Assembly (NCBI GenBank): GCA_949751835.1
Contig: CATKHK010000063.1
Location: 233,045 to 297,044 of the forward strand
Direction of reading: 5' to 3'
Source of the DNA: Blepharisma japonicum
Lineage: Eukaryota > Ciliophora > Heterotrichea > Heterotrichida > Blepharismidae
DNA length: 64,000 nt
The notes below the pieces were generated by a model, which did no database searches, was not told where the DNA came from, and saw nothing but the letters and a program-made list of their open reading frames with translations. The translations under genes and the position numbers were made by a program. Positions within the stretch are counted from its first letter, which is position 1; each line of letters opens with the position of its first letter. This document shows, piece by piece, positions 6,024 to 51,976 of this stretch.

Positions 6024-8432
6024 ATGAGATCTGGAAGATTTGATGCAGCGCAAAAAGTCCTTGGGATGCTTTTTCCCGAAAATTTCAGAGATCGCTTAGA
6101 AAGCCTAAAGCAAGATATCATAGCGCAATCAGGGATTTCTGAGATAAAAATTGAGGACTCCAAATATTTACCTCACACTTTTGAATTCTTAATAACTGGC
6201 GATACCAATAATATTATCTCCGCGAGTAGCGTTATTTTTAGCAGTTTTATCCCAGATCCATTAAGCAAAACAAGAATGGATGTACTTATTCCTGAACAAA
6301 GTGTAGGCACAGTTATAGGCACAAAAGGATCAAATATAAGCATGATTTGCCAAAATACAAAAACAAAAATAGGTATTAATAAGTATTCTCCAACATCACA
6401 AGTAGGCACTATTGATGGCACTTTCGAGGCAATTCTAAAAGCAATGGAACATATAATTGAGTTTATTTATGAAAAACCTAGAAGAGCAAGTAGCGCAGCT
6501 AGGCCTATTGGTCATACAAGGCCTGGCTCATCAGCATCAAGACAACCTTCAGTAACAAGGCCATATTATAATTATAATAACTTTGAACACAAAGTTGAGA
6601 GGGAAACAGTTGAAGAAATAACGAAAATGATAACAGTCCCTCAAAGTAAGGTATGATTGATTTTAGAACAAGATATGGGTGGACTTAAAAGACTGAAAGA
6701 TATGTCAGAATGTAATATTACCCTACATGATTCTGAAGGCGGAGATATGAAAATCTTTCAAGTAAAAGGGATGCCTTTAAAAGTCGAGATGGCTATTGAG
6801 CTGATAAAAGCAAAGACTAACCAGCTGAAGCCGAATGAGATTGATGAAAATTCTAAAACAAGGGGTAGAGAAAGCTGGAGAAATAGAGAAAACCCTTCTA
6901 GAGAGCCAGAAGAATATGAAGAAGAAAAAAAGATCCCACTTATAGAAGATTTTACAAGGCTTAATATCGCAAGAAACCAAAAAGCTGTTTCACTAGTTAT
7001 TGGACAAACAGGATCTGGAAAATCCACATTTATCAACTATCTCACTAACTTTTTCAGAAAAGGGTCTCTCAATAATAGAAAAATCGCAATCCCAACTAAA
7101 GCTTTACCACAAACAGAAAGAGATTTTAACCACACAGAAAGGCTGATAAGCTCAGAACATTCTCAAACAAATAATTGCTGCCCATATGAGTTTACCGACC
7201 TAGAAAGCTCAAGCACTTTTATTTTTATTGATACTCCTGGTATAGGTGATACCCGAGGAGTCGAGCAAGATGACGAAAATATTCAAAAAATAATACAAGA
7301 AGTTTTAAATTATAGAGAAATCAATGCAATTATAATTGTTCAAAATGGCAGTGAAGCTAGAAATACTGCAAGTATAAAATATTGCTTGACCAAACTCAGG
7401 AACTCTCTTCCAGCACTTGTAGAAACTAATATAATACTTATCCTTACAAATTGTCCAATTACTTCAAACTTTAATGCTGATTCTTTACAAATAGTTCCAA
7501 GAACAACAATTCTGATGGACAACAATGCGCTTAATATTATTAATCTACAAAGTCTTAACAAATTCCAGCTAAATCACTTGCAATTAAACTGAAATAACTC
7601 TATGCTAAAAATCAAAGAACTAGTCGAATTTATCTGTACAATGGATACTGTAGGCACAGGAGTATTTCAAAAAATGATTGATGAGGTAAGTATCGCAAAG
7701 CAAAATTTCCTTGACGCACAATCTCAGCTTACTAACCTTTACAATTTAAGGGAAAAGTTAGAAGAAGTGAGAGGACTAAAACAATCAGCATTAAGCGGCG
7801 CTAGAGCATATGAGAATTATATAAAAACAGAAACAGTTTGGCAGACTGAATGAATTGAGAGTCCAGATGTTCACAAAGTTTGTCCAACTCATAGTTCATT
7901 AGGTCGTTCAAACGGTATAAAAAAAATTAGAAGAAAAAAACCCACAGTTAGGAGGACAATCTATAAGACGAAAAGAGTTTTATGCAAAAGATGCGGTCTA
8001 AAAAAAACTGCCCATTATCATACTAGAAGAGTTCCAGTGAGAGTCCAAAGATCATTGCAAACTATCCTCAATGAGGTTAGGGCAAGAACTCCAGTACAGG
8101 TCCAAAAATCAGTCCAAAGAGTAGATTATGATGCTAAGGAAAAATATGACAAGCATACAGCACAAGCTAATATATTAAGAATACAAGAATCAAATTGTGA
8201 AAAAGACATAAAATTAGTAGAAAAATCAATAGAGGATACGAAAATGAAAATTAGGACTGCTGTTAGGAATTTAAGGGCAATTGCTCCAAATTATAACATC
8301 GCTGAAGAAATTGATGGAATTCTCCAAGAGGCAAGAATGCAGCTGAAAATAGATAGTGCACCAAAAGAAAGGGCTAAAACAAGGATTGTTATAAGAGTGC
8401 TTGAAGAAATCTACAATAATCTTTTAGGATAA
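6024..8432 (+). CDS. KH-domain / AIG1-septin-like GTPase fusion (copy A)
   Basis: An 802-residue protein if TGA at 6654, 7590 and 7851 is Trp; it ends at TAA 8430-8432. In order: a KH-type RNA-binding domain (about 84-145, GxxG loop GTKG at 99-102), a second degenerate KH (about 205-265), a charged linker, then a P-loop GTPase domain with GQTGSGKST at 327-335, a switch-like SQTNNCC segment, DTPGIGDTRG near 403-412 and an LTN motif near 474. A helical segment and a C-terminal coiled coil follow. The Cys/His-rich module present in the other copies is eroded here to a Lys/Arg-rich stretch with few Cys, ending in the still conserved HYHTRRVP. KH domains bind single-stranded RNA and this G-domain type usually dimerises. 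A role in RNA granules is only inference. Confidence 0.75.
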
Positions 8433-8772
8433 AAAATTCAATTTCTATAACTTTTGTTTAATGATTTGTAGTTTTTTAATAAAATTTTTATGAAAATTTC
8501 CTTTATAGTAGTTTTGTTGATACTTTAATCTCAATTTCCTTTCCTGCTATAAATTTATGCTAAAATATTGAGTATTATTGGATAATTTTATCAAATGCAT
8601 TTAAATTAACAGCAGAACTGATTATATAAAAATTTCATTATATAGAGTTTTGAACCATTTTACAGATTTATAATTTTATTATGGCTTATTGACCATAAAA
8701 AGCAGGCGGGCCTATTCCAAGCCTATAAATTACTAGGAGGAATAAGACCTTTTATTATTATAATAATTTATT
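8433..8772. other. intergenic between GTPase copies A and B
   Basis: AT-rich spacer. Near 8681 the sequence ATGGCTTATTGACC resembles the start of the GTPase gene at 19879 (ATGGCTTATCC) and is preceded by a similar TATAATTTTATT, but it runs into TAA a few codons later. It may be a remnant start region of another family member. The last 20 bp share ATTATAATAATTTATT directly before the ATG with gene A. Confidence 0.4.
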
Positions 8773-11241
8773 ATGAGATCTGGGAGTCTTGATGAAATGG
8801 AGTTAAAAGTCCTTGGCATGCTTTTTCCCGAATTTTTTAAAAATCGGCTAGAAAGTTTAAATCAAGAAGTTATAGCACAATCTGGAATTTCTGAAATAAG
8901 AATCGATAGGTCCAAATATTTCTCTGACGCCATTGAAGTCTTTATAACTGGTGGTAATAATGAAATTATTTCAGCATGCAACATTATTTTTGAAAACTTT
9001 ATACTAGATCCATTAAGTAAAGCGCGTATAGATATACTTATTCCCGAACAAAATGCAGGCAAAATCATAGGCTTTAAAGGGAAAAATATAACTAAGCTTT
9101 GCAGAAATACCAGAGCAAGCATAAATATTAGCAAATATTCCCCTGCATTAAGAGTAGGCAATATTGAAGGGACGCTTGAGATGATTCTTAAAGCAGTAAA
9201 ACAAATATTTTATTGAATTTATGATATCCCTGAAAATTCAGGAAATCTAGATGGATCTTTTCACTCAACACAATCTAATCCAGGAGCCCCAAAGCCTCCA
9301 TCACAAAAGTCCAAGAAGAAAAATTTCGAAAAAAGGGTTGAGAGGGAAACAGCTGTAGAAATAACGAAAATGATAACAGTTCCTCAAAATATGGTAGGAT
9401 GGCTTCTGGGAAGATATATGGTAGGGCTTCAGAAGCTAAAAGAAATGTCTGAATGTGATATTACACTACTTGATTCTGCAGGGGTCGATATTAATGCAGA
9501 AGCGGAAGAAATGAGAATTTTTCAAGTAAAAGGAATGCCTAAGAAGGTAGATATTGCTATTGAACTAATAAAAGCAGAGACTAACAAATTGAAGCTAAAA
9601 GCGATTGAAAGGGAGTCAAAATTAAATAGTAAAAACCAAATAAAAAATAAAGAAAATGCATCTAGCTGGCCAGAAGAAGATGAAGGGAATCAAAGGGAGA
9701 CTGAGCAAGTCAGTGAGAAAAAATGGAAAAAGAAAAATAAAAGTAAAAATAAAATTGCTAAAAAAGAGATTGAGGAAGAAGAAAAAAAGATCCCACTTAT
9801 AGAAGATTTTACAAGGCTTAATATCCCAAAGAACCAAAAAGCTGTTTCGCTAGTTATTGGACAAACAGGATCAGGAAAATCCACATTTATCAACTATCTC
9901 ACTAACTTTTTCAGAAAAGGGTCTCTCGAAAATAGAAAAATCGCAATCCCAACTAAAAATTTTAAATACCAAACAGAAAGAGATTTTAATCATACAGAAA
10001 GGCTGATAAGCTCCGATCAATCCCAAACAAACAATTGCTGCCCATATAATTTTATCGACCTTGAAAGCTCAAGCACTTTCACCTTTATTGATACTCCTGG
10101 CATAGGTGATACCCGAGGTGTTGACCAAGATGACGAAAATATTCAAAAAATAGTAAAAGAGGTTGTGAATTATCCAAATATAAATGCAATTATAATTGTT
10201 CAAAATGGTAGTGAAGCTAGAAATACCGCAAGTGTTAAATACACCTTAAACAAGCTCAGGAACTCTCTTCCATCACTTGTCGAAAAAAATGTAATTCTCA
10301 TCCTTACAAATTCAGCAATTTCTTCAAATTTTAATGAAAGCTCTCTCCAAATCGTCCCAAGAAAAAAAATCACTATGGACAATAATGCATTTAACGTCGA
10401 AAATTTCCAAAACCTTGATGAATATCAGAAAAGCCATTTGCAGTTGAGCTGAAATAATTCAATGAAAAAAATCAAAGAGTTAGTCGAATTTATCTGCACA
10501 ATGGGAACAGTAGGTACAAAAGTATTCAAGGAAATGTGGAACGAAATAAATATCGCAAAACAAAATTTCCATTACGCAAAATTACAGTTAGCTAACCTTT
10601 ACAATTTGATGGAAAAACTAGAAGATGTAAGAGGACAAAGAGAATTATCATTAAATGAAGCTATAGCATATCAAAATTTCAAACAAACTGAAACAGTTGA
10701 GCAGACTGAATGAACTGATACTCCATACCATAATACAGTGTGCACAAATGATGATTCATTATGCCATGAAAGATGCAGACTACATTACACCCCAAATACA
10801 AATTCCTCAATTTTCACTGGATGTGCATGCATGGGAAGTTCACCTACTTGCACTGTATGCAATTGTGGACATAATAGCCATTATCATACTAAAAAAATTC
10901 CAAGAAAAGTCCAAAAGACAGTGGAAAATATTCTCCATAATGTTAAGAGACAGCATGATTGACATAAAGCAAGAGCTAATCAATTACAAATAGAAGAATC
11001 TAACTGTGAAAAAGATTTAAAAAATGTTCAAGAATCTATAGAAGACACAAAAAGAAAGATTAGAAAAGCAGTTCAGAATTTGAGGAGGGTGGCTCCGAAT
11101 TATAATATTGCTGACGAAATTGATGGGGTTCTCCAGCAGGCAAGAATGCAGCTGAAAATTGAAAAACTGCCAAAGCAAAGAGCTAAAACAAGAGTAGTTA
11201 TAAAAGTGCTTGAAGAAATTTATAATAATCTTTTAGGGTAA
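8773..11241 (+). CDS. KH-domain / AIG1-septin-like GTPase fusion (copy B)
   Basis: An 822-residue protein with TGA at 9214, 10450, 10711 and 10960 read as Trp; it ends at TAA 11239-11241. The layout matches copy A: a KH domain with GxxG loop GFKG at 100-103, a second KH whose loop is altered to GRYM (213-216), a Lys/Glu-rich linker, then a G domain with GQTGSGKST near 363-371 and DTPGIGDTRG. Unlike copy A it keeps an intact Cys/His module (from about residue 650: C-x6-C-x3-C ... CAC ... C-x2-C-x-C ... HYH), a likely zinc site, followed by a coiled coil. The G-domain DNA is nearly identical to copy A over long stretches, which suggests recent duplication or gene conversion. Confidence 0.8.
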
Positions 11242-11921
11242 ATATTTTCGAATATGATTAACTCGTATAAAATTTTCCTAATAAGTTTTCCATTTAACTT
11301 AAAATCGTTTAAAATTTTAATTCCTTCTATAATTTTTATTATTTTTTTATAGGCTCAAAGTAAATTATAAGTTCAACCAAGCTTTATCGTTTATAATTTT
11401 ATAGGCAAGAATAAATATTATTCATTATTAGGCAGTAAAAATCCTAAAATTCAATCTAATTACAATTCCTTTTATATTTTTAATATGGCCTTATGCTATT
11501 AAGAAGAGGAGAAAATGGCTTTCTTAAGAAGAAATCTCAGAGTTTTATTATTAGATAAAAATAAGATGATAAAGTAGATGGAGTTATTAGAAATTCAAAG
11601 TAAATGGCTAAAAGCAATTTTAATTATAACTCAGCATTAAGTTCTTTGCCAAATTCAAGATGATGCTGGCTCTGTAACAAATTCAGACACAATTCATCAA
11701 AAGTTTATATTACTGATTACATGACATTGGAACTAAACTTTAGGCATGGTTTTTGAAGATAAGTTTTATTTTCATCTATTCGCGACCCTTTAGATTCATT
11801 ATGTTCTTAATAGAAAGTTACTATAATTCTGAATATTTAAAACTTTATAATTGAATTATGACCTTTTTTGAATTAAATTATCATATAATTCCTTTCATTT
11901 TAATTCTTCTATAATTTTTAA
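11242..11921. other. intergenic, no gene seen
   Basis: AT-rich. A motif CTTCTATAATTTTTATT near 11333 resembles the pre-ATG motif found before 11922 and 13667 but is not followed by an ATG-led gene. A short ATG-led frame near 11515 (MAFLRRN...) stops after about 20 codons and is not called. Confidence 0.4.
11904..11921 (+). promoter_or_regulatory. conserved pre-ATG motif TTCTATAATTTTTAA
   Basis: The sequence TTCTTCTATAATTTTTAA directly abuts the ATG at 11922. Nearly the same block precedes the ATGs at 13667 and 19879. It looks like a TATA-type or initiator element with a very short leader, though no transcript start can be seen from sequence alone. Confidence 0.45.
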
Positions 11922-13292
11922 ATGGGATGTTTTGCAAGCAAATCAAAAAAAAAAACAACAGAGCTCAAACCAAAGCCTAAAAAGCTTGTAGAATTTTATT
12001 ACTTAGATAGAAAATCAATGAAAATCATTCACCATGACGCTAGCGGTATGTTTCAAACTTTCAGAATTTGCAAAGAGGCCAATTTTTATACTGACTCAGC
12101 AGTTGGCATTATATCTAAAACACATATTATCATGGCTGGAGGCTCAAATAAGAATAGATACAGTAGAATGATATATGATGTGGACCTTGCTGCATCAGAT
12201 TTCACAGCCCTGAAAAAATTACCAATCGCATCTAGATGAGGCTACATAATAAAACATAGAAATATGGTTTATTTTATTGGTGGGATTACTAAATCTAATA
12301 AGGTAAAAAAGTCTGCTCCATTGATGGTTTTAAACTTAGAAAATTTGAAATGGAAGTTTCTAGTTAATGGCAATGGAAATCAAAATAATGATTTAGATCC
12401 TAGTTTCCCTATTGATAATTTGTGAATGCCTGGAGCATTTTTATGGAACAATAAAATTTACATTGTCGGAGGCTATAAGTCTAAGGGGAATGGAAAAACT
12501 GAGCCAAATGAGGATGTTTACAGCTTGAGTTTAGAGGATAACTCTTTGAGAAAAGAAAAGTTTATTTTATCTATAGAAGGGGTACAGCCTCTCTGCAGTG
12601 TTAAAGATGATGAAGTCACTATTATAAGTCGATACGACCCAGAAAACAGAAAACCAAGTTTTCAGTGTTACTTGGTGAAAATGATAGAAAACGCACCAAT
12701 GATAAAGAAATTAAGTCCACTTTGTTTAGAGCTTACTGAGTTTTACCCTGCATTTCATGCTGAAAATGGTACTGTATATTTTTCTTACCCTTATTTTATA
12801 TTAAAAAAATACGATTTATCTTCATGACAAACTTTCATGTTTGAGGAAATCATTGTAGCCAGATCGTTAAATCAAGCAAAAATTAATAGAATGGAAAATC
12901 AAATGTCTTATCTAGAATCAACAGGCCATACAAAAATATTTTCTGAATGAGATGACCATCGGGATTCCCAATGGATAAGTTGTAAGTGGCATCCTAATAA
13001 AAGTATGGCAACTTTGTCTATATCTTTGGTTGAAATCGATTGCAAGGAATTTAATAAATTTAAAAAAAGAAAAAAGCAAAAGCAAAAAATAAGACAAGAA
13101 ATTAACAATTTATTTAAAGAAAGAGCACCAGAGGCTAAGGAAGATTCAAGTCATAGCAGCTCAGATTCAGAGGAAAGTGGAAGTGAAAGTGGAAGTGGAA
13201 GTGAAAGTGAAAGTGGAAGTGGAAGTGGAAGTGGAAGTGGAAGTGAAGATGAAAGTAAACTCGATTGGTCAGCTATTTCCTTAGAAATTTAG
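11922..13292 (+). CDS. putatively acylated Kelch-like protein with Ser-Gly/Glu tail
   Basis: A 456-residue protein, reading TGA at 12237 and several later sites as Trp and ending at TAG 13290-13292. The N-terminus MGCFASKSKKK fits N-myristoylation at Gly2 with a possible palmitate on Cys3 and a basic patch, so membrane anchoring is likely. The body shows Kelch-like strands such as HIIMAGGS, MVYFIGGIT and KIYIVGGYKS (about residues 60-350). A Lys-rich helix follows (about 380-410), then an acidic low-complexity tail of Ser-Gly and Ser-Glu dipeptides. It lies between two GTPase genes on the same strand. It is not a close paralogue of the Kelch-like array at 1-6 kb. Function is unknown. Confidence 0.7.
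13173..13256 (+). repeat. GGAAGT/GAAAGT hexanucleotide repeat in coding sequence
   Basis: About 14 tandem copies of GGAAGT or GAAAGT encode the alternating Gly-Ser and Glu-Ser tail of the Kelch-like protein. The repeat stays in frame and is likely to vary in length between alleles. Confidence 0.85.
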
Positions 13293-13666
13293 ATTTATTA
13301 AAATAAAAATCATCTAACATGATTCATTTAAAGTTTTTTCAATAAATGGAATTTTTTTGCATAAACTTCATGATTTAAATGATAATAAATATCTAGAAAT
13401 TAGCTGTAAATTCTTAAGTTTACACACTTTGGATTCGTATAAAGCCCAAAGGTTTATTTGTTGCAATACTTATTAGTATTATTATTATTATTATCATTTT
13501 AACATTTTAACTCAAATTTATATTTTTCCATCAATGCTCATTTATAATTTCACTAGCTTTTGCAATGCTAAAACACTACCTTGAAGCTTATTAAGCACTT
13601 AAATACTTTAAAATGATGTCAATATTTAGATTTAGCCATCCATTTTATTCTTTCTATAATTTTTAA
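13293..13666. other. intergenic
   Basis: AT-rich spacer with a short ATT trinucleotide run near 13478-13493. No gene is seen. Its last 19 bp form the pre-ATG motif of the next gene. Confidence 0.4.
13648..13666 (+). promoter_or_regulatory. conserved pre-ATG motif TTCTTTCTATAATTTTTAA
   Basis: It directly abuts the ATG at 13667. It matches the blocks before 11922 and 19879, with the core TTCTNTCTATAATT. The match extends upstream to a CCATTTT-like run shared with the 19879 gene. Confidence 0.45.
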
Positions 13667-16066
13667 ATGGAGCCTTGGCCTGATCCTAAATTTGCTTATA
13701 TGCAAACTTGTTCAAAAGATCAAATACTTGTTAACAATTATACCGGAACAAGTGATGGCAATGAAACACGAACTCCAGCTGATACTTCCTACCCTAAATT
13801 TAATACTCCGGGCATGTTTCAATCGCAAGAGTTTGGCTTTTTTAACCAACCACAATTTTTTCAAAACCCAGCCAATGAATACATAAGAAGACCGAACACT
13901 ACAAAATATTCAGATTTAAATGATGGCTTTAATAACCAACCACAATTTTATAAATACCAAGGCAATGAAGATTGAGAATCAAAAACACTGAGGACTGAAA
14001 CAAGATATCAAAATTTAAATTATGAGAAAAAAGGAATGAAAGTTGCAGAATATTCATCATCCTCCTCTCCTGTGTCTGAGGAGTCTAAAAATAGACACGG
14101 ATCTGATAAAAGGCATCATAGTAAAAGGCATCATAACAAGAAATCAGAAAGATTGCAAGAAGACTCTCGTAGATTTGAGGATGTTAATGAAAGCCCAAAA
14201 AAACCTTATATAAGTCAGAAACGAAAAAAATCACCCCAATTCCCTTGTGAGTATCAAAATAATGGTCAGGAAGGTGTAAGAGTTGATCATGCTGGCAGGA
14301 GGCCCAAATATAATAAGAGAAATAAGTCTGATTCTTCAAGCTCTTCAAGATCCAGTTCAAGTGATCATAAAAAGCGAAAACATGAGCATAAGAGAAAGCA
14401 TCATCACCATAAACATCATGATTCATCTTCAAAAAAAAAAATGAAAGAAATGGAAAAAATAATTGCACTGCTTGGAGCAAAACTTTTGGACGATAAAGAA
14501 GTTCCCAAAAAACCTAAAAATAAAAAGAATCCTGAGCCAGAAATATTTCCGTATTTTCCTGGAGATTTAAGGCCAGCGGATAAATTTGATGAAGAAAGAC
14601 GGAGACTATCATTAGAAGAACAAAAAGACCACCTGCAGCCTGCCAGCAACAAAAAGCTCAATATTCCTCAGTTTCAAAGTGTAGTAGCCTTAGTTATTGG
14701 AGAAACAGGCTCAGGAAAGTCCACATTTATTAATGCACTTACTAATTTTTTCAAAGACGGAAGTTTTGAAAATAAAAAATATGCCATAGGAATTAGTGAT
14801 TATGGACAAACTGAGTCTGAATTTAAGCAAATTAAAGATGGAGCAAACCAAGGAGTCAGCCAAACACAAGATTGCTGTGGATATGAATTTACAGATTCTC
14901 AAAGTGCTAGTACTTTTACATTTATCGATACCCCTGGAGTAAGCGACACGAGAGGTGTAGATTATGATGATAAAAACTTAAAAAAAATTCTTGGGCAAAT
15001 CAAAGAGTATGATGAAATCAATGCGATATTAATAGTCCAAAATGGAAGTCAAGCCAGATTGACACCAAATCTAACAAACGCACTTAATAGAATTTTAGGT
15101 ATTCTTCCAAATGAAGTTAGTGACAATATAGTTTTAGTTCTTACAAATTCTCCTTTTAATACAAACTTTCCTGTTAATAGTCTTGAAATACGACCAAAGA
15201 AAGTATTTTTGATAGATAATTCAAGCTTTAAAAAACCTGGAGAATTTGATGATTTAAATGGTCTCAGAGACTCCTGAAACAAATCTATGGCGAGAATTAA
15301 AGAAATAGCAGAATTCATTAGCACAATGGGCTCTTTTAATGCAAAGTGCTTCAATGAGGTGGAAAAAAGAGTTGACGAAGCGAAACAAATCTTGCATGAA
15401 GCTAAAACAAAACTCTTTAACCTATATGATCTAAAGCAACAAATTGAAGAAATTAAAATGAATAAAGAATTAAAATTTGCTGATGCCCAAACTTATAAAG
15501 ATTTTATGAAAACTAAAAAAATAGATCAGATAGAATGAGAAGATGTAGCTTACCATAATACTGTTTGTGGCAATGATAGCTCTTTATGCCATGAACATTG
15601 CAGCCTAGAATTTACCAAAGATAAAAATGGATCAGTTTTTTCTAAATGTGCATGTATGGGATCTGGTCTAAAATGCAAAGTTTGCGGATGTGGGGCTGAT
15701 AGTCACTACCATACGAAGAAAATACCTACAAAAACGGAAAAACTCGTTGACGAAGTATTACAAGATGTAAAGGATAAGTTCACCTCACTTAATGCTAAGG
15801 CAGAAGAATTAGGAGCTCAAGAAGAAGGACTTGAAGGTGATATCAAAAAGGTGGAAATGTCTATAAACAAAGCAAAAAGTAAATTAAAGGCTGCTATCCT
15901 ACAGGTAAAGAAAGTTGCTCCTCGCTATAATATATCTGGGGAAATTGATAATTCCATCAAAGTTTTAGAATATGATCTGAAAAACACTGCAGACCCTAAG
16001 AAGAGAAAGTCAATTGCAGATTCCATTCGTACTCTTAGAGAATTTTACGAGAGTCTTAAATTTTAA
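13667..16066 (+). CDS. AIG1/septin-like GTPase with low-complexity N-terminus (copy C)
   Basis: A 799-residue protein with TGA at 13973, 15275 and 15536 read as Trp; it ends at TAA 16064-16066. It has no KH domain. Residues 1-110 are Asn/Gln/Phe/Tyr-rich, with FNNQPQF repeated; residues 120-290 are rich in Ser, His, Lys and Arg (a KRKHHHHKHHD-type stretch). The G domain follows with GETGSGKST near 345-353, a SQTQDCCGYEF switch-like segment, DTPGVSDTRG and LTNSP. Then come a helical segment, a full Cys/His module (C-x6-C-x3-C ... CAC ... C-x2-C-x-C ... HYHTKKIP) and a coiled coil. The N-terminus resembles that of RNA-granule or speckle proteins, which is an inference from composition only. Confidence 0.78.
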
Positions 16067-17370
16067 GTAATATTCCAGTGTCGAAAGTATATTTTCATTA
16101 TATAAGATTTAATCACTTAATTTTATTTTATCTTTTAAAGTGAAATTTTAGCAATGCTAAAATTGGCTTTAAATTAATTTATTGGCTTGGATTATATTTT
16201 TAAAATGAAATTATGTTTATCTAAATGAGTGTAGACATTCATAATCTGAAGCTGGCTTAATAAATGTAAAATGTTAAATATAAAAGTTTAGGCATAGCAA
16301 AGGTAACTTTAATTATAGTCAAGAATATTTATGATAAGCCTGAATGATGTTTAGTATCTTCTTTAATTGTCTTCCTCCAACTTTAAAAAATTTCGTTAAA
16401 GGCAGATTAGGCTAGGCTAATTATAAGTTCCTACAGCAAATATTAAACCTTCATAGCCACTAAGATACTAGGCTTACGAGTGACCATTTAGGAAAAAAAA
16501 ATTAAATAGAGTAATTAGGAATTTGAGAGGGATTAAATCAGCTTATAAGCAATGCAACTTCTGTATATAATTTTATCAGAAATTATCAAATTCTCAAGAT
16601 TCCTCATACCATGCGTATAGGTGGCCATATAAGAAAAAATCCAAAAAAGAGTAATTAGGAATTTGAGGGGTATTAAAGAGGCAAAGTAGCTTTTGTTTGT
16701 ATATTATCAGAAATTATAAAATTCTCAAGACTCTTTCATTGTTTGCCATATGTTAGAAAATAGTGTGGTGTGCTTTGCTTAACAATTTAAGAATATTTAT
16801 TATATTCTGGATGAATCGCTAACAAATATTATGGTATAAACCATAATTTTATGAAAAAGCAAAGAGCATAAAATTAGAATGATTTTTTTTAGTATATCTA
16901 TTATAAATTTTTTTTCGCCAATACCAAAAGCTTGAATAAACAAGTAGTTAAATGATTTTATCTTTATGATGGAATTTTAATTTTATTATAAAAATGCATC
17001 ACAGAGAATTTACTCTAAAGCATCTTTTTGGAGTCTTGCTTATAAGATGTGAATTTTTTTGAGAAAAGCTGGTTCAAATTAATCATGGAGCTTATAAGTA
17101 GCGTGTGCTACATTCAAAGTTATGAAATTATAGGAATAGATATCAATAAATGCTTTCTTTTAAATAGATTTAAAGATTTCATCATAAATATAAATTTTGC
17201 TAATAGTTGAGTATGCTTATGTATAACCCTTAATCATTATTGATTAATTAAGCTAACAATTTTTAGGTTTTGAGTAAAGATTTTAGCCTAAAAAAAACTT
17301 AAAGCCCAATAGCTTTATAATGACGGACAAGAATTATAAAATTTATTCAAACATGCTAAATATTATAATA
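16067..17370. other. intergenic with a 140-bp tandem duplication
   Basis: 1.3 kb of AT-rich DNA without a gene. It holds the two-copy repeat listed at 16480-16745. No RNA gene or recognisable relic is seen elsewhere in it. Confidence 0.4.
16480..16745. repeat. two imperfect direct repeats, period about 140 bp
   Basis: Two segments share blocks in the same order: GAGTAATTAGGAATTTGAG (around 16509 and 16649), a TATCAGAAATTAT block and AATTCTCAAGA near the end. The copies have diverged between blocks. They are noncoding and of unknown function. Confidence 0.6.
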
Positions 17371-17835
17371 CTAATAATTAATAGTAGCTTTAAATATTAA
17401 ACCTCCATATCTGACTGTATTTTGGACAATTATATGCAAGCAATTATTTCCTTGAACAGTATTTGAAAGCATATCAATATCTGTCAAAGTACTAGAGGTG
17501 CTGGATTTCATCTCTACTAGCCTTCCATTAAGAAATAAGGTAAAATTATCATCAGCAGCAATTGTAATATAAGAACGAGTCGGAATTCCAGGAACATCAA
17601 AACATCTTATAAATAGCACAGTCTTAGATTTTGAATTATCCACGTTTTCTCAGATCCAATATACACCATCAATATTTGGCCAAATGCTAGCATGCTGTAC
17701 TAAACTCGTTGCATAGATTTTTTCAGAGGATTGAAATGTATATACAAGCCCATCACTAATTACAGTTAAGGTTTGTGCATATATTTTTTGGTAGAGCAAG
17801 ATATAAAAAGCCAGAAAAGATAAGCTTTTATTCAT
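17371..17835 (-). CDS. small secreted protein, lectin-like fold possible
   Basis: A 154-residue protein with ATG at 17833-17835, TAA near 17371 and one in-frame TGA (Trp) at about 17650. The N-terminus MNKSLSFLAFYILLYQKIYA is a clear signal peptide. The mature part has beta-strand-rich sequence, including IAADDNFTLFLNGRLVE, which resembles the core of galactose-binding or PA14-type jelly rolls, where a DD...LxxNG run is common. Two Cys could form a disulphide. Its neighbours are GTPase copies C and D on the other strand, with over 1.3 kb of spacer on each side. The exact family is uncertain. Confidence 0.6.
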
Positions 17836-18982
17836 TTATTATATAAATTGATATTATATTTTCAAGTAAGCCATATTGGAAGCTAAACATAAGAGTGTTT
17901 ATAAAATTTAATATGTTAAAATCGTCTATCATTCTATTAATTTAGTATTATTTAATAAATATTTTCAGCAATTCATTAAATAAATCTCATTGTTAGAGCT
18001 ATATCAGAAAAGAATAAAAATTATCATCAAAATCATGTTTGATAGATTTTTTGTTTTAATAGTTAAAATAATGCTAAGATTGATATTTATGCCATCAAAA
18101 TACCTTTTATTGTAAATTAACTGAAATATTTAGATTAATAAAACTTTCAACAGGTTAAATGAGGGAAAAAATAAAATTAATATGCATTCTTCACTCGCAG
18201 GCTAGCAACTGATTTTTCCTATTTGTTTTTCTTATAAATATAAAATAGTCATATCTACTTATATAAGCAATTAGTATATAAATTATTCTCTAGATAGCAG
18301 CAAATCTTGTAATACATTATCAAAATAGGCTGCTCGCAATAAATTTTGAAATACTTTTGATATAAACTAAAATTGATTAACCCTGATTTTACAAGTCTGA
18401 GAACTCAAAAGAATGCTATAGTCAATCTGCTTAAATAATCAATTTGCAGGTGAAAGAGATACATCGGCAATTGTTGAATAAAATAATACTAATTGCTTTT
18501 GAGATTGAATTTTATCAACTATAAGTGCATCTTCAAGCTGGATCTCTATTTCAAGTTCGCTTCAATTAGAATTTTTAGTATCTTTTGCACAGATTAGCTG
18601 TTAAAATATTAAGTCTCGAGAAAGCACTTCATAAAAAGAGATATTGTGTTTCTGAAGTCCATAATATATTGATTAGGATGCTTGTTGGAGAGTTGCCGCT
18701 TATATAATAGTTGATTAATTAAGATATTACTTTCTAGATTGGCTGATTTTAAGCATAATCAACATTAAAAATATAATTTATAATTTTTTTTAGAAACTGT
18801 ATCACCTGATATTTCAGATATCCCTCAGGAATTATTAAATCCCCATTTTTTACAAAGAACTTTATTTTGGCTCAAAAATATTGTGCTCCTCTTATCAAAT
18901 TTTGCAATTGTATAAAAATGAATGCATCACAGCTCTATAGCATTATATTTTTTATTATGCATAGTTTGGTATGAGAACAAAT

Positions 18983-19070
18983 CTTGAACTGAAACAAATA
19001 GTCAATTTATCAACAGAGCAGACTAAAAACACATCAAAAAGGGGACTAAAAGTGCAAATAAAAGAAAAGA
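18983..19070 (+). pseudogene. fragment of the 22861-24039 gene
   Basis: About 85 bp align without large gaps to codons about 20-50 of the unknown protein at 22861-24039. Shared blocks include AAAACACATCAAAAA and ACTAAAAGTGCA. The flanks do not match and stops interrupt the frame, so this is a short dispersed relic. Confidence 0.65.
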
Positions 19071-19860
19071 GAGTTGAAAATGGGTAATCTTAGAAAATTT
19101 GCAGCATATAAAATAAATAATTAAATTGTAGAGCAGGATTTGAGGAATTCTAAATCACAGCATTTCTGAAGAATTTAGCAGAAAATAGAAAGGCTACCTA
19201 AGCAAAACGTTAAGAAGAGGATTAAAATAAAATGCTTTAAATATTTATAAAAATATTTTAAGATAAAAGCTCAAATAAATCAATGTTAACTATTCAGCTA
19301 AAGCACATTCTTAAATCTGCAGGAATCTTGTAAATAGAAACTATATATTTGATAAACTATAATATAAATTTTCTACCTATGACATATTTAGCCATTTTAA
19401 TTTAATATATAATTCATTCTACACTTTTTATAAGTTTCAAAATAATGCTAAGCTCTAAAACCTTCTTTTGTTTTTCAATATATAAGCACAATCAAAATTT
19501 TATTTTCTTTGAAATAAGCAAATAAATTTTAAAACAATCATTAGTGCAAAGTATTTTAATTTCTTTCCAAAATTTTAATATCAAGATCTTGCTTTTAAAT
19601 TAGCAGGTAGCTTTCTAGAGCTCGATTATTAGCACAAACAATTTTTTATGTAATTTCAAACCTATTATTTGTCAATTTTCTTATATTTTAAAGGTTTTTC
19701 AACACTGCCTTGATAATAATCGCATGTGTCAGAAAAGTTGTTATAAAACCATTTTATTAGACAATTATAATGCTGAGATACAATTTAAGACTTGATAAAC
19801 ATTTCATGAAATTTTTGCTATTAAAATGGTTTTCCCTAACATCCTGAAATTTACCATTTT

Positions 19861-19878
19861 TTTCTTTCTATAATTATA
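19861..19878 (+). promoter_or_regulatory. conserved pre-ATG motif TTTCTTTCTATAATTATA
   Basis: It directly abuts the ATG at 19879 and shares the core TTCTTTCTATAATT with the blocks before 11922 and 13667. Confidence 0.45.
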
Positions 19879-21957
19879 ATGGCTTATCCAAATCTAGGAG
19901 ACAGTAGTTACCTTACAGCATATAAAAATCGTAGCAATATACCTCAACTTGGAGCCATCAATATTCCTAATCAACAATATAACCAAGGTGGTTATATGTA
20001 TGGTCTATATTATAACCAATGCCCTCCAATGCGTATGAATATGAACCCAAATTTGCCGCAATATCCAAATTTCAATAATCCATATAAAATATCAAATCAG
20101 CAATATCCAAATTTCAATAATCCATATAAAATACCAAATCAACAATATCAAGATCTCAATAATGAATCAAAAATTGAAGATTCAAAAAATACTGGGGGAC
20201 ATAAAAATCCTAACCTATTGATATATCCATCACTTCCACCATTACCTGAAGAATCTGATCCAAGCCTGAAACCTCAAAAAAAGGGGAAAAATTATAAATA
20301 TTCTTCAGAAGAAGAAATGAGAGATATAAGAAAGCAATTAAAGAGGATTGAGAAGCTAATAAAGAAAAAACCACAAGAACCAATAAAGGTGAGTCCACAA
20401 GAAATTCAACCCCCACAAAAGCTTTTTGAAAGGGTAAGAACAGATTTTAAAGTAGAAGTAGATATTAAAGTTGAAGAAATAATTGATAAAAAATTAGAAG
20501 AAAAAAAAGTCTCTTTGGCAAATCAGAAGAAGCTCAATATTGCTCCGTACCAAAAAATAGTTTCCTTAGTCATTGGGGAAACAGGGTCAGGAAAGTCCAC
20601 ATTTATTAACACTCTTACAAATTTTTTCAGAAATGGAACCTTATTAAATAAAAAAATTGCTATACCTAACGAACATTTCCCTCAAACTGAAAATGATTTA
20701 AAACACGCAGAAAGCGGAAAAGGGAAAGATCAAAGCCAGACAGTTGATTGCTGTCGGTATGATTTTAGAGATCTTGATAGTGCTAGCACATTTACATTTA
20801 TTGATACCCCAGGACTAAGTGATACTCGAGGAGTAGATCAAGACGATGTGAATATAAGTAAAATTGAAAATGAAATTGTGAAGTATCAAGATATCAATGC
20901 AATTATAATAGTTCAAAACGGAAGTCAGGCTAGAAAAACAGCAAGCCTAAATAATTCACTTGTTAGGATTAGAAACACTCTGCCAAGAAATGCTGAAAAA
21001 AATATACTTTTAGTCCTTACAAATTCTTCCCTTTCTCCAAACTTCGATGTTAATTCTTTGCCTATAGCTCCAAAAAAAACGTTTATCATGGACAATAGCG
21101 CTTTTAATATAGTTGACCCTAAATCTCTCAGTGAATGAAATTTAATGGACTTGCAAAAAGACTGGGACAGATCAATGGAAAAAGTCAAAGAATTAGCTGA
21201 GTATTTATGTATAATGGGCAGTTTTAGCATCCAATGCTTCAAAGAGATGATTGAAGAAAAAGATAGAGCGATACTAAGTTTTCATCAGGCAAAAATTAAA
21301 CTCCAAAACCTTTATGAACTACATGAAAAGCTTGAAGAGGCTAAAATAATGAAAAATTTGTTATTAAAGGATGCTAAAACTTATCAAAATTTTGTGGAAA
21401 CCAGAACAATTGATCAGATTGAATGAATTGATGTGGACTATCATAATACTGTTTGTAGCAATGATGAATCTTTATGCCATGAAAAATGTGGCCTGGAATT
21501 TACCCCAGAAGAAGATAGATCAGTTTTTTCGTGTTGTTCATGTATGGGAGACAATTCTATTTGCACAAAATGTCACTGTGGACCTTAAAGCCACTACCAC
21601 ACGAAAAAAATTCCTATAAAAACTCAAAAAAAAATAGAAGAAATCCTGCAGGATGTAAAAAAGAAGTTCGATAAAAAAACTGCTAGGGCAAATCAATATG
21701 AAACTGAAGAGCAGAAATTTTTAAGTAGCATTGAAGAAGTGAAAAAATCTATAGATGATACTAAAATTGAAATAAATACAGCAATTCAAAGACTAAAAGA
21801 AGTTGCGCCACATTATAATATATCTGAGAATATTCATAACTTCATTGCACAATTAAAAATGCAACAGAAAATAGAACAAATACCTAAGAAGAAAGCTGAA
21901 AATTATGCGACTATTAAGGTTCTTGAAGAAATTTATAATAATCTTAAATTGGATTAA
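19879..21957 (+). CDS. AIG1/septin-like GTPase, low-complexity N-terminus, premature TAA (copy D)
   Basis: The frame runs from ATG 19879 with TGA at 21136 and 21424 as Trp. Residues 1-110 are Tyr/Asn/Gln/Pro-rich with two 14-residue repeats; a Lys/Glu-rich helix follows; then the G domain with GETGSGKST near 233-241, SQTVDCC, DTPGLSDTRG and LTNSS; a helix; and the Cys/His module. Inside that module, at the position where copies B and C read CGHNSHYH or CGADSHYH, this copy reads CGP-stop-SHYH (TAA 21586-21588). The frame stays open and conserved afterwards to TAA at 21955-21957, coiled coil included. The predicted product is 569 residues without the last zinc ligands and coiled coil, or 692 with readthrough. 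No 15- or 16-nt GT-AG intron can remove the stop. Confidence 0.75.
20059..20142 (+). repeat. two 42-bp tandem repeats in coding sequence
   Basis: 20059-20100 and 20101-20142 are almost identical and encode two copies of the 14-residue unit QYPNFNNPYKIxNQ in the Asn/Gln/Tyr/Pro-rich N-terminus of GTPase copy D. Confidence 0.85.
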
Positions 21958-26939: not shown

Positions 26940-29654
26940 ATGGCAAACACATATGACAAGATTAAAGACTTTATTGGGATGCTCAATTTACACGTAAGAG
27001 GCAAGAAAATGAAAGCCCTAGAAAGCTTGGATGAGTTTTTATTTTCCCAAAATCCTCCTAAACTGACTATGAGAGATGTTACACTACTATTCATGGGCTA
27101 TGAAAACAAAAAAGGCCTTTTACTTGCAATTGGGATGGAAAATCATCTACGAAAAACCTTAAAATCAAGCGCGCACTATGCATTGCAGCTTATAGCCCGC
27201 CTTTTAGAAACTTCTCCAAGCAAATCTGACTGTGTACAAGTCCTGGGACTTACAGATAGAATGATTCTTCAACAAATGAAATTTGATAAGCATTTTAAAC
27301 ATGCAGAAAGCACAAAAAATAAAGGAATTTATGTGGTCTGCAAAAGTTTGAAAAAAATAAAACCATCAGTACCTGTAGATGTCTATATTACAAGCAAAAC
27401 TTATAGAGACAAATTTTTGAGCTGACTGACACAGAATAAAGATGAAGAAAATAAAATTGAGGATGAGCCTTCAAGGTGAAGCCAAGTCCCTAAAGAAAAA
27501 ATTGACGAAAAACCTGATCCTTTAGGAATTAAAAATAATATTTCAATTCCGAACCAAGGGACAATGTCCCTAGATTTAGTTGATATAAAATCACCATTAT
27601 TTAAACCTGCTGTATTTTTGTCAAAAGTCCATGGAAATACAACTATTCCAGAGCTGAGAAGGGGTCTGGAAAATTTGAGGAAAGGGTTTAATGATAGGCA
27701 GACTCAATTTTCAGCAATGATAGGCGAGCATTCTAAGGTGTATGGAGAATGCAGAAGCTTGCTAGACGAAATGAGGGATAAGCTTGTAAAGGTGCAGCTT
27801 TCGTCTGGGTCTGCAATGAATGCTCATGAAGCTTTACAATTAGCTGAAAAATCAGAAAATTATGCACTAACACCATTGCTGAAGCAGAAAGCAGAGATGG
27901 AGAGGGTGAAAAAACTGATTTATTTGAGTAATAAGTTTAGTTACTTGTTTAAGCTGCCATCAATGCTGCAAACTCATCAAGCCCATTCTGATATTGACAC
28001 TATTGTAGATTTATATCAAAAGCATATATCAATAATTAAATCAAACTCCCATTTACCAGTCTTTTCTAACGTCGTAAAAAGCGTCGATGCGATTATAGAA
28101 AATGTAAAAGAAACAATTCTGCAAAACATTAAAAGGGAAAGAAATTTAAACTTTGATATTATATGAAAAGCTGCCCATCAGCTAAGCGTACTTAATCCTG
28201 ATTCTGATGGGATTCAGACAATTTTAGATAATTTGTATCAGTTTATTAAAAATTTTATAGAAAATATGTGAAGCAAAATTGATAAACAAGGGGAATTGCC
28301 ATGACTTATGAAGGATGAAAAAGAAAAAAATGATTTTGATATTGAAAGACAGGCAACTGAGCAGCTAATTGAAAGAATTCTGGAGAGATGTGGGCTTTAT
28401 ATTGGGATTTATACACAGTTAATAGAAGAAACTAAATCAAATTCTTCAAAATACCAAAGGGCTATGAAAAAATTGCAAAGAATAGGAGTTTTGTTAGCAA
28501 AAAGGTTGAAGGATAGCTTATTTGACGAAAATTCTGAAAAACCTTTAAAAGCAGTTGACATTGACGCGTTATCAACTAAAATGAAACAATTATGCCAGTT
28601 AATAAAAACTAATGAATTCCAAGATTTTGGTATCGAATATACTTGTAAAGTCATAAAATGCAGGATGATTGATCTAAAAAACGAGGTCTCTGATCTATGA
28701 AAAGAAGAATTATGAAGCAAAGATTTTGAAAATAAATACGGGACGTGCTTGCCCAGCATTTTTCACTGCATGGCAATCCAGCAGATAATGAAATTAAAAA
28801 ATCATTTACCATCAATTCACGAAAAATTTATTTTAGAAATTTTAGAAGGATTGAGTGAAGCTACAATAGCTTTAGTTCAATCAATGCAAAAAACCTTAAA
28901 TACAGACATAGCCCAACAAGTAAGAATCACCAATTCTCAGAAAACACTACTTACATTATCCAATGCATATTTTATACAAGAATGCGTCCTTCCAAATATC
29001 TCTCAAAATATCCTTGAAATTTTTAATATAAAATTCTCTGACGAAGCCCAAATAATTATAAATAAAACCATTGAGAAAATTTCAGAATTCAGAGAGGCAT
29101 TAAAAAAATATTTTATTCAAAAAAAATCAGATAAATTTGAAAAAATAATTGAATCTGGGATAAATTATAGTGATGATGATATTGGACTTGATGCTTGCAT
29201 TTTTTATAAGCATATGTTGGCTGACCAAAAAATCGCGACAGAAATTCGACCTTATGTTTTTAATTTAATTGGAAAATTAGTAAGGTCTATTGAAGAATTA
29301 AAAAGAAAATGCCCTGATTTAAGGAAAGAATTAGAACAAAGTTTTGCTGAAGAAATCGCTCACTTGTGGAGACGAAGCATTCAAGTGCATCATAAACAGT
29401 TCGATATTAAAGAGACCATCCAAATATGAATTGAACTGGAATTTTATCAAGAAATTTTGCCCAAAATTGAAATAAAAAATCTTGAAAAATGTTTTTATTA
29501 TTTAAAAAAAATTTATTCAAAACTGAAAGGATTAAGTAAATTGGTAAATACAGAAGAAATATTTATTGGGAAATTAAAAGACGCAAAAGATGAATTAATT
29601 ATGGGCTCGAAGTACAAAATTAGGTTGATGATAGAGTGTTTAGACATTAATTAA
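26940..29654 (+). CDS. SEC5: exocyst subunit Sec5 (EXOC2)-like
   Basis: A 904-residue protein from ATG 26940 to TAA 29652-29654, reading about ten TGA as Trp. The most telling block is DPLGIKNNISIPNQG followed by SPLFKPAVFLSKVHGNTTIPELRRGLENL and a helix with a conserved-looking EHSKVYGECRSLLDEMRDKL, matching the N-terminal part of Sec5 proteins. The rest is a long alpha-helical rod, as in exocyst subunits. The first 165 residues (MANTYDKIKDFIGML...) look like an added helical domain. The exocyst tethers secretory vesicles to the plasma membrane. Its stop lies 14 bp from the stop of the convergent CCDC77-like gene. Confidence 0.7.
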
Positions 29655-44527: not shown

Positions 44528-47500
44528 TTAAAAGCATGCTCTACTATATTTATTGGGGACCTTCACTGTGACCATGCTACCTTTAGAAAGTGAAGAATTC
44601 GGTAAAGATGTGATTGCAGTGTACATTTTTGCTATAGGCCCATATGACCAACTTTTCAACACAAATTCTTTCTTATGTGTAGCAATGCACAAATGAAATT
44701 GATTATCAAATCCATGCACTTCCAATTTATCAATTTCTTCAACTTTTACCTTCGCAATGATTTCACCTTCAACTAAAAACAGGAAATTCTTTGTCGTGAG
44801 TATTACAATTAAATCTTCTTCTTCGTCTAAATGTAAATAATATACCATCCTTTCTTTTTTGCTTAAATTCAAAGATCGCAATAACTCTTGAGCCTGGGAA
44901 AGTTCTTGGTTATAAGGCTCCAGCCGAAATCTAGCCCCAAAATGCCTTGGAAATCGGCTTCTGCCAAAAGTTTGGACTTTTCCTCTGGTTACAAGTGTAG
45001 CAGCATGAGCTACACTTCCTGTCAAAGTGTTTCCGAATTTTAGGATTGCGGCGACTGGAGAGATTACGATCCCTACAACTCCAGAACCAAGGCCTTTAAA
45101 AAATCCTCCAGTTCCTCCTTCTTTAGCACCCTGATAAGGTTTGGTGAAAATTCCAGTCACTCCATTTTTTATATCATTTACCCCACCTTTGAAGCCTTCT
45201 AGCATGTTTTTGCCGAGGCTTACGGATTCTCGAGGTTTGTAATTTTGGGCACTAGGATCTCCGCTGACTGATTTGACAACTTTGTATAAAGACCCTGTAA
45301 TTTTGGAAACTGAGCCAAACCCACCAATAACTGCATTCCCTACAAGGGACTTGAAGCCTTTTCCAACACCTTGAGCAAAAGCTTTGGGGCCTTTAATAAA
45401 TCCTTTAGCAGGCTCATTTATGAACTCAAATACGCCTGACCCAAGTTTATCAATCAGACCTATAGGATTTCCTAATAAATCAGAAGACCCTATAATCTTG
45501 TAAAACTGAGTGATTGCTTGTCTGAGGTAATTTTTTAGAATTATTCACATCAAATTATTGATAGTTTGGAAGCTGTTTTCAAGCATTAATTCTTTAAATG
45601 CCAACGGAGAGTCAGAAATTGTTATAAATGCACTACCAACTGAATTAAGTATTCCAATTAGCCCAAAAGCTTTTCCAGGATCACCCAGTACAACTGCTTT
45701 ATGACTTTTTACAAAACTCACATTCACTTGTATAGCACAAAGCCTTATAAATTCAAAGCAGGCTTTTCTCTCTATTCCTGAAGGATGGTAAGAAAGGGCT
45801 GGGCACTCACAGCTTAAATTTGGGTACAATTCATTTATAAATTTCATGCCTTTAATTTCTCGAATTTGTTTAATTTTTATTCTATTTTCTATTTTCTCTT
45901 GGATTTTTAGCAGAATAAAAATCATTTCTTCATTAATTTTAAGTTGCATGCTTTGGATCAGTAGTTCAAGCCATGTGATTTTTTCAAAAGTTTCTATCAT
46001 TTGCTTGTTTTGCTTTGTGGATGAAAATTTTTGGACTTTAAGCTGAATAAAGGGAATAATTGTCCCATTTTCGTCTTTATTTGTTTGGACTGGAGAAAAA
46101 ATGACTGGGAAAAAGCCATGATGGCTGCTCATATTGTCGACTTGGAGGTGGCCAAGTTTAAAGTTTACCTTTGTGGTTTTTTCAGTTCTTTTGGATGTGA
46201 GCTCTTCGATTTGCTTTATTTTGAAATTCATCTGTTCAAGGGAAAGGTAAAATACTTCAGATGGTTTTTCGTCTATAATTGATATTCCGACTCCTGTTAA
46301 GTTTGCGGTAAATTTAAAAGTCTTCTTTACTGAGTTTTCTTGAACGCTATTTACCTCAGAACTAAGCAATTGTTCAGGCTCTATTATATTTAACTGTCGA
46401 GTTATTCCTTCAATAACTAAATTTACCTTAAATTCCCCTAAATCCTTATCCTCTTTTACTTTTTCTAATGAATATTTTTTAGAAGTATCATTTATTGTCA
46501 CAAGTACCTTTTTGTCCTCCTTTAAATGATTATCATAAGCCCAAGGAATTTTTGTATATGGAGTAATTATTATTGATAAATGTTTATATTTTCGCTGACA
46601 AACCGAGGCGTTTTCTTTTGTGTTGTTAAATATGCAGAATTCAGGATCTTTTGGAGTTACGAAATTTATATGAATTGTAGCCTCATCTTCACTGACTATG
46701 ATTACTCTCGCAAAATGCATAAAATTATTGTTTTTATTTGGAATCCACCAATTTTTGTTTTTTACTGGCTCAGAGTCTGAATATTTCCTAACACTAAAAA
46801 ATCTTATTTGGAAATCTTCTAAATTTTCTATTCAGAATGGTCCTGACCATAATTCCCCAGTTTCAGATACTTGTACAGCCATAGACTTTGTACAGTCTTC
46901 AAGCTGATATGGAATTGATTTTCCGTTTTCAATCAAAATTGTTGTAAGTGCAGACTCATTTTTGATATACTGTCTTAAACGAACACTAAATCCTAAATAA
47001 TTTGATATAATAAATCTTGGTACCAGCGAAATTACTCTTGTTTTTATCAAAGGTGCAGGAGCTTGTGAAATTGATATGCCAAACTGCAAGGATTTTGGAA
47101 GCTCCTCAGTGTTTTCTAGCTTAATACACCCTGCAATACCAATAGTATCTTCATTAAACTCATTACTCCAGCTGCCCCCATTAGCAAGCTTTATTTTTGA
47201 ATGGTTTTTTCTTGAGGAATAAAATCCAAAAGAATGCCTTTCTATTCGCAGCCTGGAAAATTTTATATCATAATCTGTCTTATTAAGCACTATTTGGTTA
47301 AAAAATAGCTGGAATAGCTTGTTTTTAACACCTCTAAAAAGCACAGGGACTACTTTATGACGGTCATTTAAATCTATACCTTCACAATCCCTGAAATCCT
47401 TTATAGAAATTTCTATATTTATTTTGCTTTTCGGGACTTCTACTAGTGGAATTGAGGAATTTTCAATAATTTCAGCCCATTCTGTGGTATAAGTCGTATT

Positions 47501-50500: not shown

Positions 50501-51976
50501 TACAGAAGATGGCCTGATTCCAAGGTTTATCATAAAATCATCAATTTCTCCTTGCATAAGTGGCTGGTTATTATTTGAGATATGTGCTGAAATCTTCCTA
50601 ATGCTAAAGACTAAAATTATTTTTACTCAGCTTGGGCTTTCTTCTACTATTTTTTTATTTTTATCGTCATTTTTTAATTTTTTCTTCTGCTCTAAAATAT
50701 ATTTCAACTCTTTTTCAGCTTCAACTTTTTTTGCTTTTTTCTTGGTATCAGGCTCATTTTTTGCTCCAAACCAACCTTTAATAGTAGAAAACCCGAATGA
50801 GCTTTTATCATTTTCAAGCTCGCTTATTTCTTTTCTTTTTTCCTCTTCTTGCTTGACCAGCTCACTTTCTTGGATAACTCTTTTTCTATATTTTTTAATA
50901 TTTTCTAATTTAATTCCTTTTTCCATATTGCATAATATTTTTCTTAACTTATCTGCATCTTTTTTATCAGTTTTAGTTTGAGAAAAATTTTTTGACCTAA
51001 AAAGTGCATAAGTTTCTTTATAGTTCCTTGATTCACTTTTTTTAAATTTTCTTTCTTCTATATGGCTATTAATCCCACTAATAAAAGTGTCATAAAGTAG
51101 TATATAATCAATTAGTTTTAAGAAATGAGTCATTTGATTTGCATAGAGCCCAAGCTTTAAATCGTCTTGATCTAAAGATAGAGAAAATAATGGACTTTCA
51201 TGATTTTCTGAGTCCAAGCCAAAAATTAATTCTATTTTTGTATTAATCGGATCTATCAAAAACTTGTGAGGAATACTATAAGAAAGCTCATCTCTTGCAA
51301 ATTTTTCCAATGATTTTTCTTGTTCTGAACAATTTAATATTCCTGACTCAAAATCAAAAAATACTGACAAGCCTTTTACAGAAACCAATTTAAATGACGC
51401 TTTACGGTCAGTCAAAAATGCTGGCTCCCAGTTTTGGTTACAAGAAATAGCTGTCAATTCATTTAGAATAAACCCAAAGGCAAACGGCTCAAACGAACTG
51501 ACAGAGTCTTCAAATCTTATATACAGATTTTTAATACTAATTTGGATATTGGTAATTATTGAATACACTAATTTGTCAATTCATCCTTCATCAGTCTTAA
51601 GATAATTTTTATCTGGATTCATTGCTTCAAAATTATCAAGTTTTAGCTGTTTTGACTGCATAATATTTTGCAGTTCAAGTGCTTCATTTCAATCATTAGA
51701 AGGTCGTGGCTTAATTAAAGCAAAGACATCTTCTATTTCTACTTGAACAGGACTTGATTTAAGTGAAGTCCATGGAATTTTTACGAATAATTTTCCGAAA
51801 AATCCTGAGCTGATTTGAAATGGGAAGCCAAGATTTTTAAAAGCATCTTGTTTGAGGGATAAGTTTTCAAGCTGGATCTGACCAGAGAATAAGGAAAGAT
51901 TAAGCTGGTCTGAGTTTAGATTTTCAACTCAGTCCCCAAGAATTGTGTTAAGGACTCTTGCTAGTGCTGAGTTCAT
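44528..51976 (-). CDS. VPS13: VPS13-family bridge-like lipid transfer protein
   Basis: A 2482-residue protein: ATG 51974-51976 (MNSALARVLNTILGD), TAA or TAG at 44528-44530, one continuous frame with many TGA as Trp and no intron seen. The N-terminal chorein domain is clear (LARVLNTILGDWVENL, IQLENLSLKQDAF, IPWTSLKSSPVQVEI, NIQISIKNLYIRFED). The middle is repeating beta groove; about 1290-1700 resembles the VAB/SHR-BD region; the C-terminus has GNPIGLIDKLGSGVFEF and repeated GVGKGFKSL-type helices and ends in a PH-like domain (MVYYLHLDEEEDLIVI...). VPS13 proteins move phospholipids between membranes at contact sites. It is shorter than animal and yeast VPS13 (about 3100 residues). Its 3' end is duplicated at 41865-42275. 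Confidence 0.92.

Follow-up and report, generated by a model that had tools for sequence, protein, structure and literature searches.

The window analyzed here, a stretch of 64,000 nucleotides, is the right end of Blepharisma japonicum contig C63 (positions 233045-297044 of 297044) in an assembly of 45.2 Mb and 224 contigs. When three genetic codes were compared (table 11, table 6, and TGA read as tryptophan), only the last gave long uninterrupted frames: 802 codons for gene P1, 822 for gene P2, and 2482 for a VPS13 homologue. According to excerpts of PMC9942806, Blepharisma stoltei uses a UGA=Trp code, has introns mostly of 15 and 16 bp, and carries telomeres of CCCTAACA. The pattern (CCCTAACA)3 produced 168 overlapping matches in the present assembly, compared with 0 for the reversed control; among the matches listed, copies sit no more than 100 bases from the start of C36, C47, C69, C78, C80, and C89.

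P1 and P2 are adjacent plus-strand genes, each a single open frame with TGA=W. P1 (6024-8432, 802 aa), recognized by its open frame, Pfam matches, and motifs, consists of an N-terminal segment, a first KH domain (KH1) with a GTKG loop, a second (KH2) in which the GxxG loop is lost, a linker, and a G domain, followed by a helical arm, a remnant of a Cys/His module, and C-terminal helices. P2 (8773-11241, 822 aa), recognized by the same evidence and a structure model, has the same order, with GFKG in KH1, GRYM in KH2, and a full Cys/His module.

KH domains usually bind RNA. Pfam KH_1 (PF00013) matched the N-terminal regions of both P1 (E = 2.4e-13, 50 bits) and P2 (3.1e-16, 59.3 bits) well above the curated cut-off of 21.5 bits, with the best stretches at residues 86-145 of P1 (6279-6458) and 87-145 of P2 (9031-9207). 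Read from the translations, the GxxG loop is intact in KH1 and degenerate in KH2 of both proteins. These matches bear out the proposal, made in an earlier note from the DNA sequence, that two adjacent genes here encode a KH domain with a GxxG loop. The same note had described a second, degenerate KH. At the loose limit of E ≤ 1, each protein shows two KH_1 stretches; when domains were scored singly on the genome, P1 KH1 (44.9 bits), P2 KH1 (39.7 bits), and P2 KH2 (33.1 bits; residues 195-271, 9355-9585) exceeded the cut-off, but P1 KH2 was absent from the list.

The multi-KH proteins that the genome itself encodes, on C49, C6, C70, C42, and C7, also served as a source of profiles; the KH2-position profile covers only 49 residues because of an exon end, and C7 contributes to the KH1 and last-KH profiles only. 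Against the own-genome KH1 profile, KH1 and KH2 of P2 scored 31.6 and 31.0 bits (the maxima over 500 shuffles of each were 8.0 and 5.8), and those of P1 scored 24.8 and 16.4 bits (shuffles at most 7.2 and 7.9). Judged by these profile scores, the KH domains of P1 and P2 are relatives of the KH domains in the genome's multi-KH proteins. A derivation of the KH part from the KH1 and last KH of such proteins was rejected: the KH1 profile is the best fit for P2 KH1, but P2 KH2 also fits it (31.0) better than the last-KH profile (22.4). A third KH in residues 11-82 was suggested by eye, but profiles, hhalign (probability 1.9%), and Pfam gave it no support, and the N-terminal segments of P2 and P1 scored 2.1 and 2.8 bits against the first-position KH profile, where shuffles reached 6.3 and 4.7. 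The N-terminal 296 residues of P2 matched only P2, P1, and, at 9.6e-4, a KH protein on C49.

The G domain follows in the same frame. Pfam MMR_HSR1 scored 33.9 bits in P1 and 32.9 bits in P2 (cut-off 21.9), and both proteins contain GQTGSGKST (7002-7028 in P1) and DTPGIGDT, as had been noted for the two genes. All six G domains of the family share G1 (GxTGSGKST or GHSGHGKST) and G3 (DTPG). The canonical G4 motif is N/TKxD; here it is replaced by LTNS or LTNC, found by pattern in five of the six and by eye in P4 (LVLTNS). An Arg within QNGSEAR, QNGSQAR, or QNGSESR is invariant in 6/6 G domains (residue 483 in P2) and may be a putative trans Arg finger, matched to Toc34 R133 by position only. In the P2 model, the G domain with its helical extension spans residues 340-593 (9790-10551), and the predicted fold is of the Toc34/GIMAP/septin (paraseptin) type. 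The domain had been called AIG1/septin-like, a label that agrees with this fold but not with family-level scores. The AIG1 (PF04548) cut-off of 27 bits was not reached by any of the five proteins scanned (P1 14.3, P3 21.5, P4 15.7, P7 26.2; P2 unlisted), nor was the Septin (PF00735) cut-off of 26.2 bits (P3 13.1, P4 16.1; P1, P2, and P7 unlisted), and profile searches of the PDB with two queries (A2 and A8) returned neither Toc34 nor GIMAP. The best PDB matches of A2 were ABC-type P-loops, with septin-3 at 0.075.

Beyond the G domain, P2 carries C657-x6-C664-x3-C668, CAC at 684-686, CTVCNC at 693-698, and HYH at 703-705 (C657 to H705, 10741-10887). The pattern also occurs in P3 and would be a putative zinc module. 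A Cys/His module had been attributed to both adjacent genes; it is present in P2 precisely as described, but P1 retains only C620, CKRC, and HYH. The module is poorly modeled (pLDDT mostly <50 in both models). On either side of it, long helices are predicted with good confidence, in keeping with the helical segment and coiled coil expected there. No Pfam family was found at 10201-10941 of P2, eight scanned stretches of the family tail gave no Pfam match above cut-off, and the C-terminal half found no fold match (best Foldseek E 0.16).

Further members start at 13667 and 19879 on the plus strand and lie at 62475-60569 and 63635-63273 on the minus strand, which gives at least six members or parts in the window, the number originally counted, and at least two more elsewhere (on C102 and C1); all these counts are lower bounds. 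P3 (13667-16066, 799 aa) combines an RS/His-rich low-complexity N-terminus with the G domain, Cys/His module, and C-terminal helices, and has no KH. P4 (19879-21588) has an N-terminus that is Asn/Pro/Gln-rich by eye and a G domain, and runs for 569 aa to an in-frame TAA (21586-21588) inside the Cys/His module; the frame after the TAA (21589-21957) encodes a C-terminal part 51% identical to P2. On the minus strand, P7 lacks an N-terminal extension and encodes the G domain and Cys/His module (61336-62475) up to an insertion of about 450 bases (60887-61335) that interrupts the module, with its C-terminal part beyond (60569-60886). A further C-terminal copy (63273-63635, minus strand) is followed by the contig end at 64000 before any G domain. 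The C102 member, also without an N-terminal extension, runs by eye into the same insertion as P7. In the C1 protein, a C-terminal half with 71-73% identity to P3 is preceded by about 280 residues that belong to a large family. KH_1 was not found by Pfam in P3, P4, or P7 at E ≤ 1, and the KH part is thus confined to two members. The family had also been described as expanding, a word to be used with caution: P4 is broken by an in-frame stop, P7 and C102 each run into an insertion, and the contig end truncates one copy. Searches gave no confirmed relatives in viral contigs (P0002, 28 pattern matches; A3, 150) or prokaryote genomes (A3, 595 pattern matches) and none in phages (P0004); these negatives carry little weight, since eukaryotes are scarce or absent in the databases concerned. 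For the three proteins tried, the matches to PHROGs and PADLOC were all weak.

Codon-level comparison of P1 and P2 (Nei-Gojobori, own script, TGA=W, 5000 bootstraps) gave dN/dS of 0.25 (0.10-0.52) for the N-terminal segment, 0.56 (0.31-1.02) for KH1, 0.22 (0.10-0.43) for KH2, 0.36 (0.22-0.57) for KH1+KH2, 0.79 and 0.89 with wide intervals for the linkers, 0.37 (0.11-1.23) for G 340-420, 0.23 (0.13-0.40) for G 421-545, 0.21 for the helical arm, 1.23 (0.62-2.49) for the Cys/His module, and 0.21 for the C-terminal helices. An earlier division into regions gave 0.29, 0.53, 0.26, 0.71, 0.27, 0.24, 1.21, and 0.22. Purifying selection is shown for the N-terminal segment, KH2, KH1+KH2, G 421-545, the helical arm, and the C-terminal helices, in each of which dN was below dS in at least 99.9% of bootstraps; the figure was 97.1% for KH1 and 95.3% for G 340-420. 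Synonymous divergence is 0.12-0.17 at P2 residues 301-420, 0.36 at 421-480, and at least 0.54 in other windows. The drop over 301-420 therefore makes it probable that the half of the G domain holding the P-loop is a recent gene-conversion tract between P1 and P2.

The KH and G parts could be two genes whose frames run on by chance, and Blepharisma introns, tiny according to the consulted part of PMC9942806, could hide in frame. We consider this very improbable indeed: both copies hold one frame despite differences in linker length, at P2 residues 301-360 only 29 codons align to P1 and still without a frameshift, and P1/P2 nucleotide identity (150-column windows, without a formal background) falls only beyond the ORF ends, from 54-95% inside to 30-53% just outside. 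Pfam, the predicted fold, and selection between the copies all support P1 and P2 as KH-GTPase fusions, as had been claimed. Alternatively, these could be chimeric ORFs without present function, produced incidentally by recombination close to chromosome ends and now decaying. The in-frame TAA of P4, the insertions in family copies, and dN/dS of 0.97 (C102 and P7), 1.51 (the two minus-strand C-terminal copies), and 1.79 (C1 and P3) point that way, the ratios being noisy because dS is only 0.07-0.10 and no bootstrap was made. The constraint on most P1-P2 domains and their maintained frame argue against it, and we judge it improbable.

Among known systems, the Toc34/Toc33 chloroplast import GTPases have solved chains without KH or Cys/His module and are 14-17% identical to the proteins described here; Toc34 is membrane-anchored in plastids. 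GIMAP/AIG1 GTPases differ in G4 as well as in the AIG1 scores, and the titles and abstract openings covered by the literature search showed no KH partner for them. The N-terminal KH domains of P1 and P2, together with the low Septin scores of P3 and P4, set them apart from septins. A similar predicted structure was found for the AIG1 family protein of Pithovirus LCPAC304 in BFVD (429 aa, 17% identity; Foldseek 7.7e-6 over 348 columns). In KH sequence and fold, P1 and P2 resemble PCBP/IMP/FUBP-type proteins as well as the multi-KH proteins that this genome encodes (C49, C6, C70); no GTPase was seen in the frames of these proteins as fetched. The literature search, which covered titles and abstract openings and lacked most subscription papers, showed no type I KH joined to a paraseptin G domain. 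What is new is the combination of domains from known superfamilies.

We favor, at a probability of about 45%, the view that these GTPases, of the Toc34/GIMAP/septin type, form a small family that evolves fast and has a tail of its own made up of long helices and a Cys/His cluster, with a KH front in two tandem genes and a presumed role as an RNA/nucleotide scaffold. In the paraseptin branch, G domains pair using an Arg finger (excerpts of PMC11238149 and PMC12973003), a GIMAP2 dimer is mentioned in the consulted part of PMC4774019, and the Toc34 dimer is favored by the GDP form (PMC12973003, in excerpt). By the mechanism proposed here, the G domains would pair across the nucleotide, with the invariant Arg of QNGSEAR as a possible trans Arg finger, and the helices and Cys/His node would hold the oligomer together. 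KH1 would grip single-stranded RNA, and KH2, degenerate yet conserved, could serve as an interface. The nucleotide state would cluster or release the RNA bound by KH1; because Toc34 dimers are favored by GDP, GTP may either assemble the proteins or release them. With siblings carrying other N-termini on the same body, the whole would act as an exchangeable-adaptor scaffold. Best supported as an inference is an oligomeric scaffold under nucleotide control, in which KH1 would contact RNA, KH2 would form an interface, and the N-terminus would be what varies in the family. The RNA-bound, nucleotide-switched scaffold suggested earlier is plausible.

Other functions would fit parts of the data. The family may be an immune-type RNA sensor, by analogy with cell-autonomous defense GTPases such as GIMAP/AIG: the KH form would recognize viral or endosymbiont RNA, and N-terminal exchange would follow threats. 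Fast turnover (probable gene conversion, an altered Cys/His module, interrupted copies, the C1 chimera) is in line with this, as are the AIG families of the snail Biomphalaria, which, in the accessible part of PMC7053062, form tandem arrays with varying added domains. Yet the KH and G parts of P1 and P2 appear conserved, without positive selection, and rapid turnover by itself is no proof of defense; we regard a sensor as unlikely. An Era-like GTPase of ribosome or RNP assembly, whose KH would bind an rRNA or snRNA tail while GTP hydrolysis times release, seems rather improbable. Era/ERAL1 likewise joins a KH domain and a GTPase in one chain, so that the statement that no KH-GTPase fusion had been described stands for the present form but not in general; in Era, however, the GTPase comes first and the KH, of type II, is C-terminal (PMC10582724, in excerpt). 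P1 and P2 have the type I KH first, with KH_1 N-terminal to a G domain closer to that of Toc34, and P1 scored 19.2 bits on the NCBIfam Era model against a cut-off of 116.25. Quite unlikely, too, is a modular GTPase platform near a chromosome end, in which recombination would swap N-terminal readers onto a constant oligomerizing body and the KH form would sense RNA, possibly foreign. The exchanged reader would be a KH part or an RS-like one; where only the tail is concerned, it would be another family's Cys/His front.

If the scaffold reading is true, P1 and P2 would represent a paraseptin GTPase with RNA cargo, coupling nucleotide-controlled oligomerization to RNA clustering, and the family would amount to a natural experiment, with different N-terminal readers fitted to a single GTPase body. 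It would also illustrate how the exchange of segments gives rise to novel protein architectures in a ciliate.

The tandem genes P1 (6024..8432, plus strand) and P2 (8773..11241, plus strand), which encode the KH-GTPase fusions, are unevenly diverged. Comparison of P2 residues 301-420 (about 9673-10032) with the matching part of P1 gave dS values of 0.12-0.17, while most other windows gave values of at least 0.54. Because dS over these residues is so low relative to most of the rest, gene conversion between the two copies probably took place there. A Kelch-motif gene with a Ser/Gly/Glu repeat tail (11922-13292) separates P2 from the third GTPase gene; genes for the Sec5 exocyst subunit (26940-29654) and a VPS13 homologue of 2482 aa (44528-51976) are ordinary neighbours.

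Elsewhere in the genome, frames of multi-KH proteins on contigs C49 and C6 (L027, L026) are each split by a single stop codon inside a KH domain. In the C49 gene, inspection of the translation by eye suggests that the 15 bases ending in this stop codon form a tiny intron. Very long frames on C14, C25, C140, C98, C208, and C169 (L047, L048, L049, L050, L051, and L052) carry a different P-loop G domain (GxTGxGKSTTxHFL); their lengths are 1081-1999 aa, some being lower bounds where the frame ends at the edge of the stretch.

The C1 protein (C1:6263-7852; L046, L064) belongs to a large family with a conserved N terminus of ~280 residues that begins with Cys/His. A search with it returned 83 matches, including the query itself and GTPase-family rows. 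Each of the 20 matches in rows 2-21 of the 83, found on 20 contigs, is no more than 13.3 kb from a contig end, and 18 of the 20 are oriented toward that end; three of these contigs (C206, C205, and C191) are just 14-21 kb each. This family is provisionally labelled B-box-like and Kelch-like; a Pfam scan of the first 386 residues of one member gave no match.

The end of C102 (L045) resembles that of C63 (window positions 54146-62475): by eye, an ABC-transporter-like frame is followed by a GTPase copy, and two adjoining minus-strand frames appear transposase-like. P7, the interrupted minus-strand GTPase gene (62475-60569), and the C102 copy are broken at the identical point of the Cys/His module, the putative zinc cluster, by an insertion (60887-61335 in P7; from 3377 of L045 in C102). 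Similar sequence lies upstream of the further minus-strand C-terminal copy at 63635-63273. Possible origins of the insertion are an eliminated sequence that was retained and an old mobile insertion.
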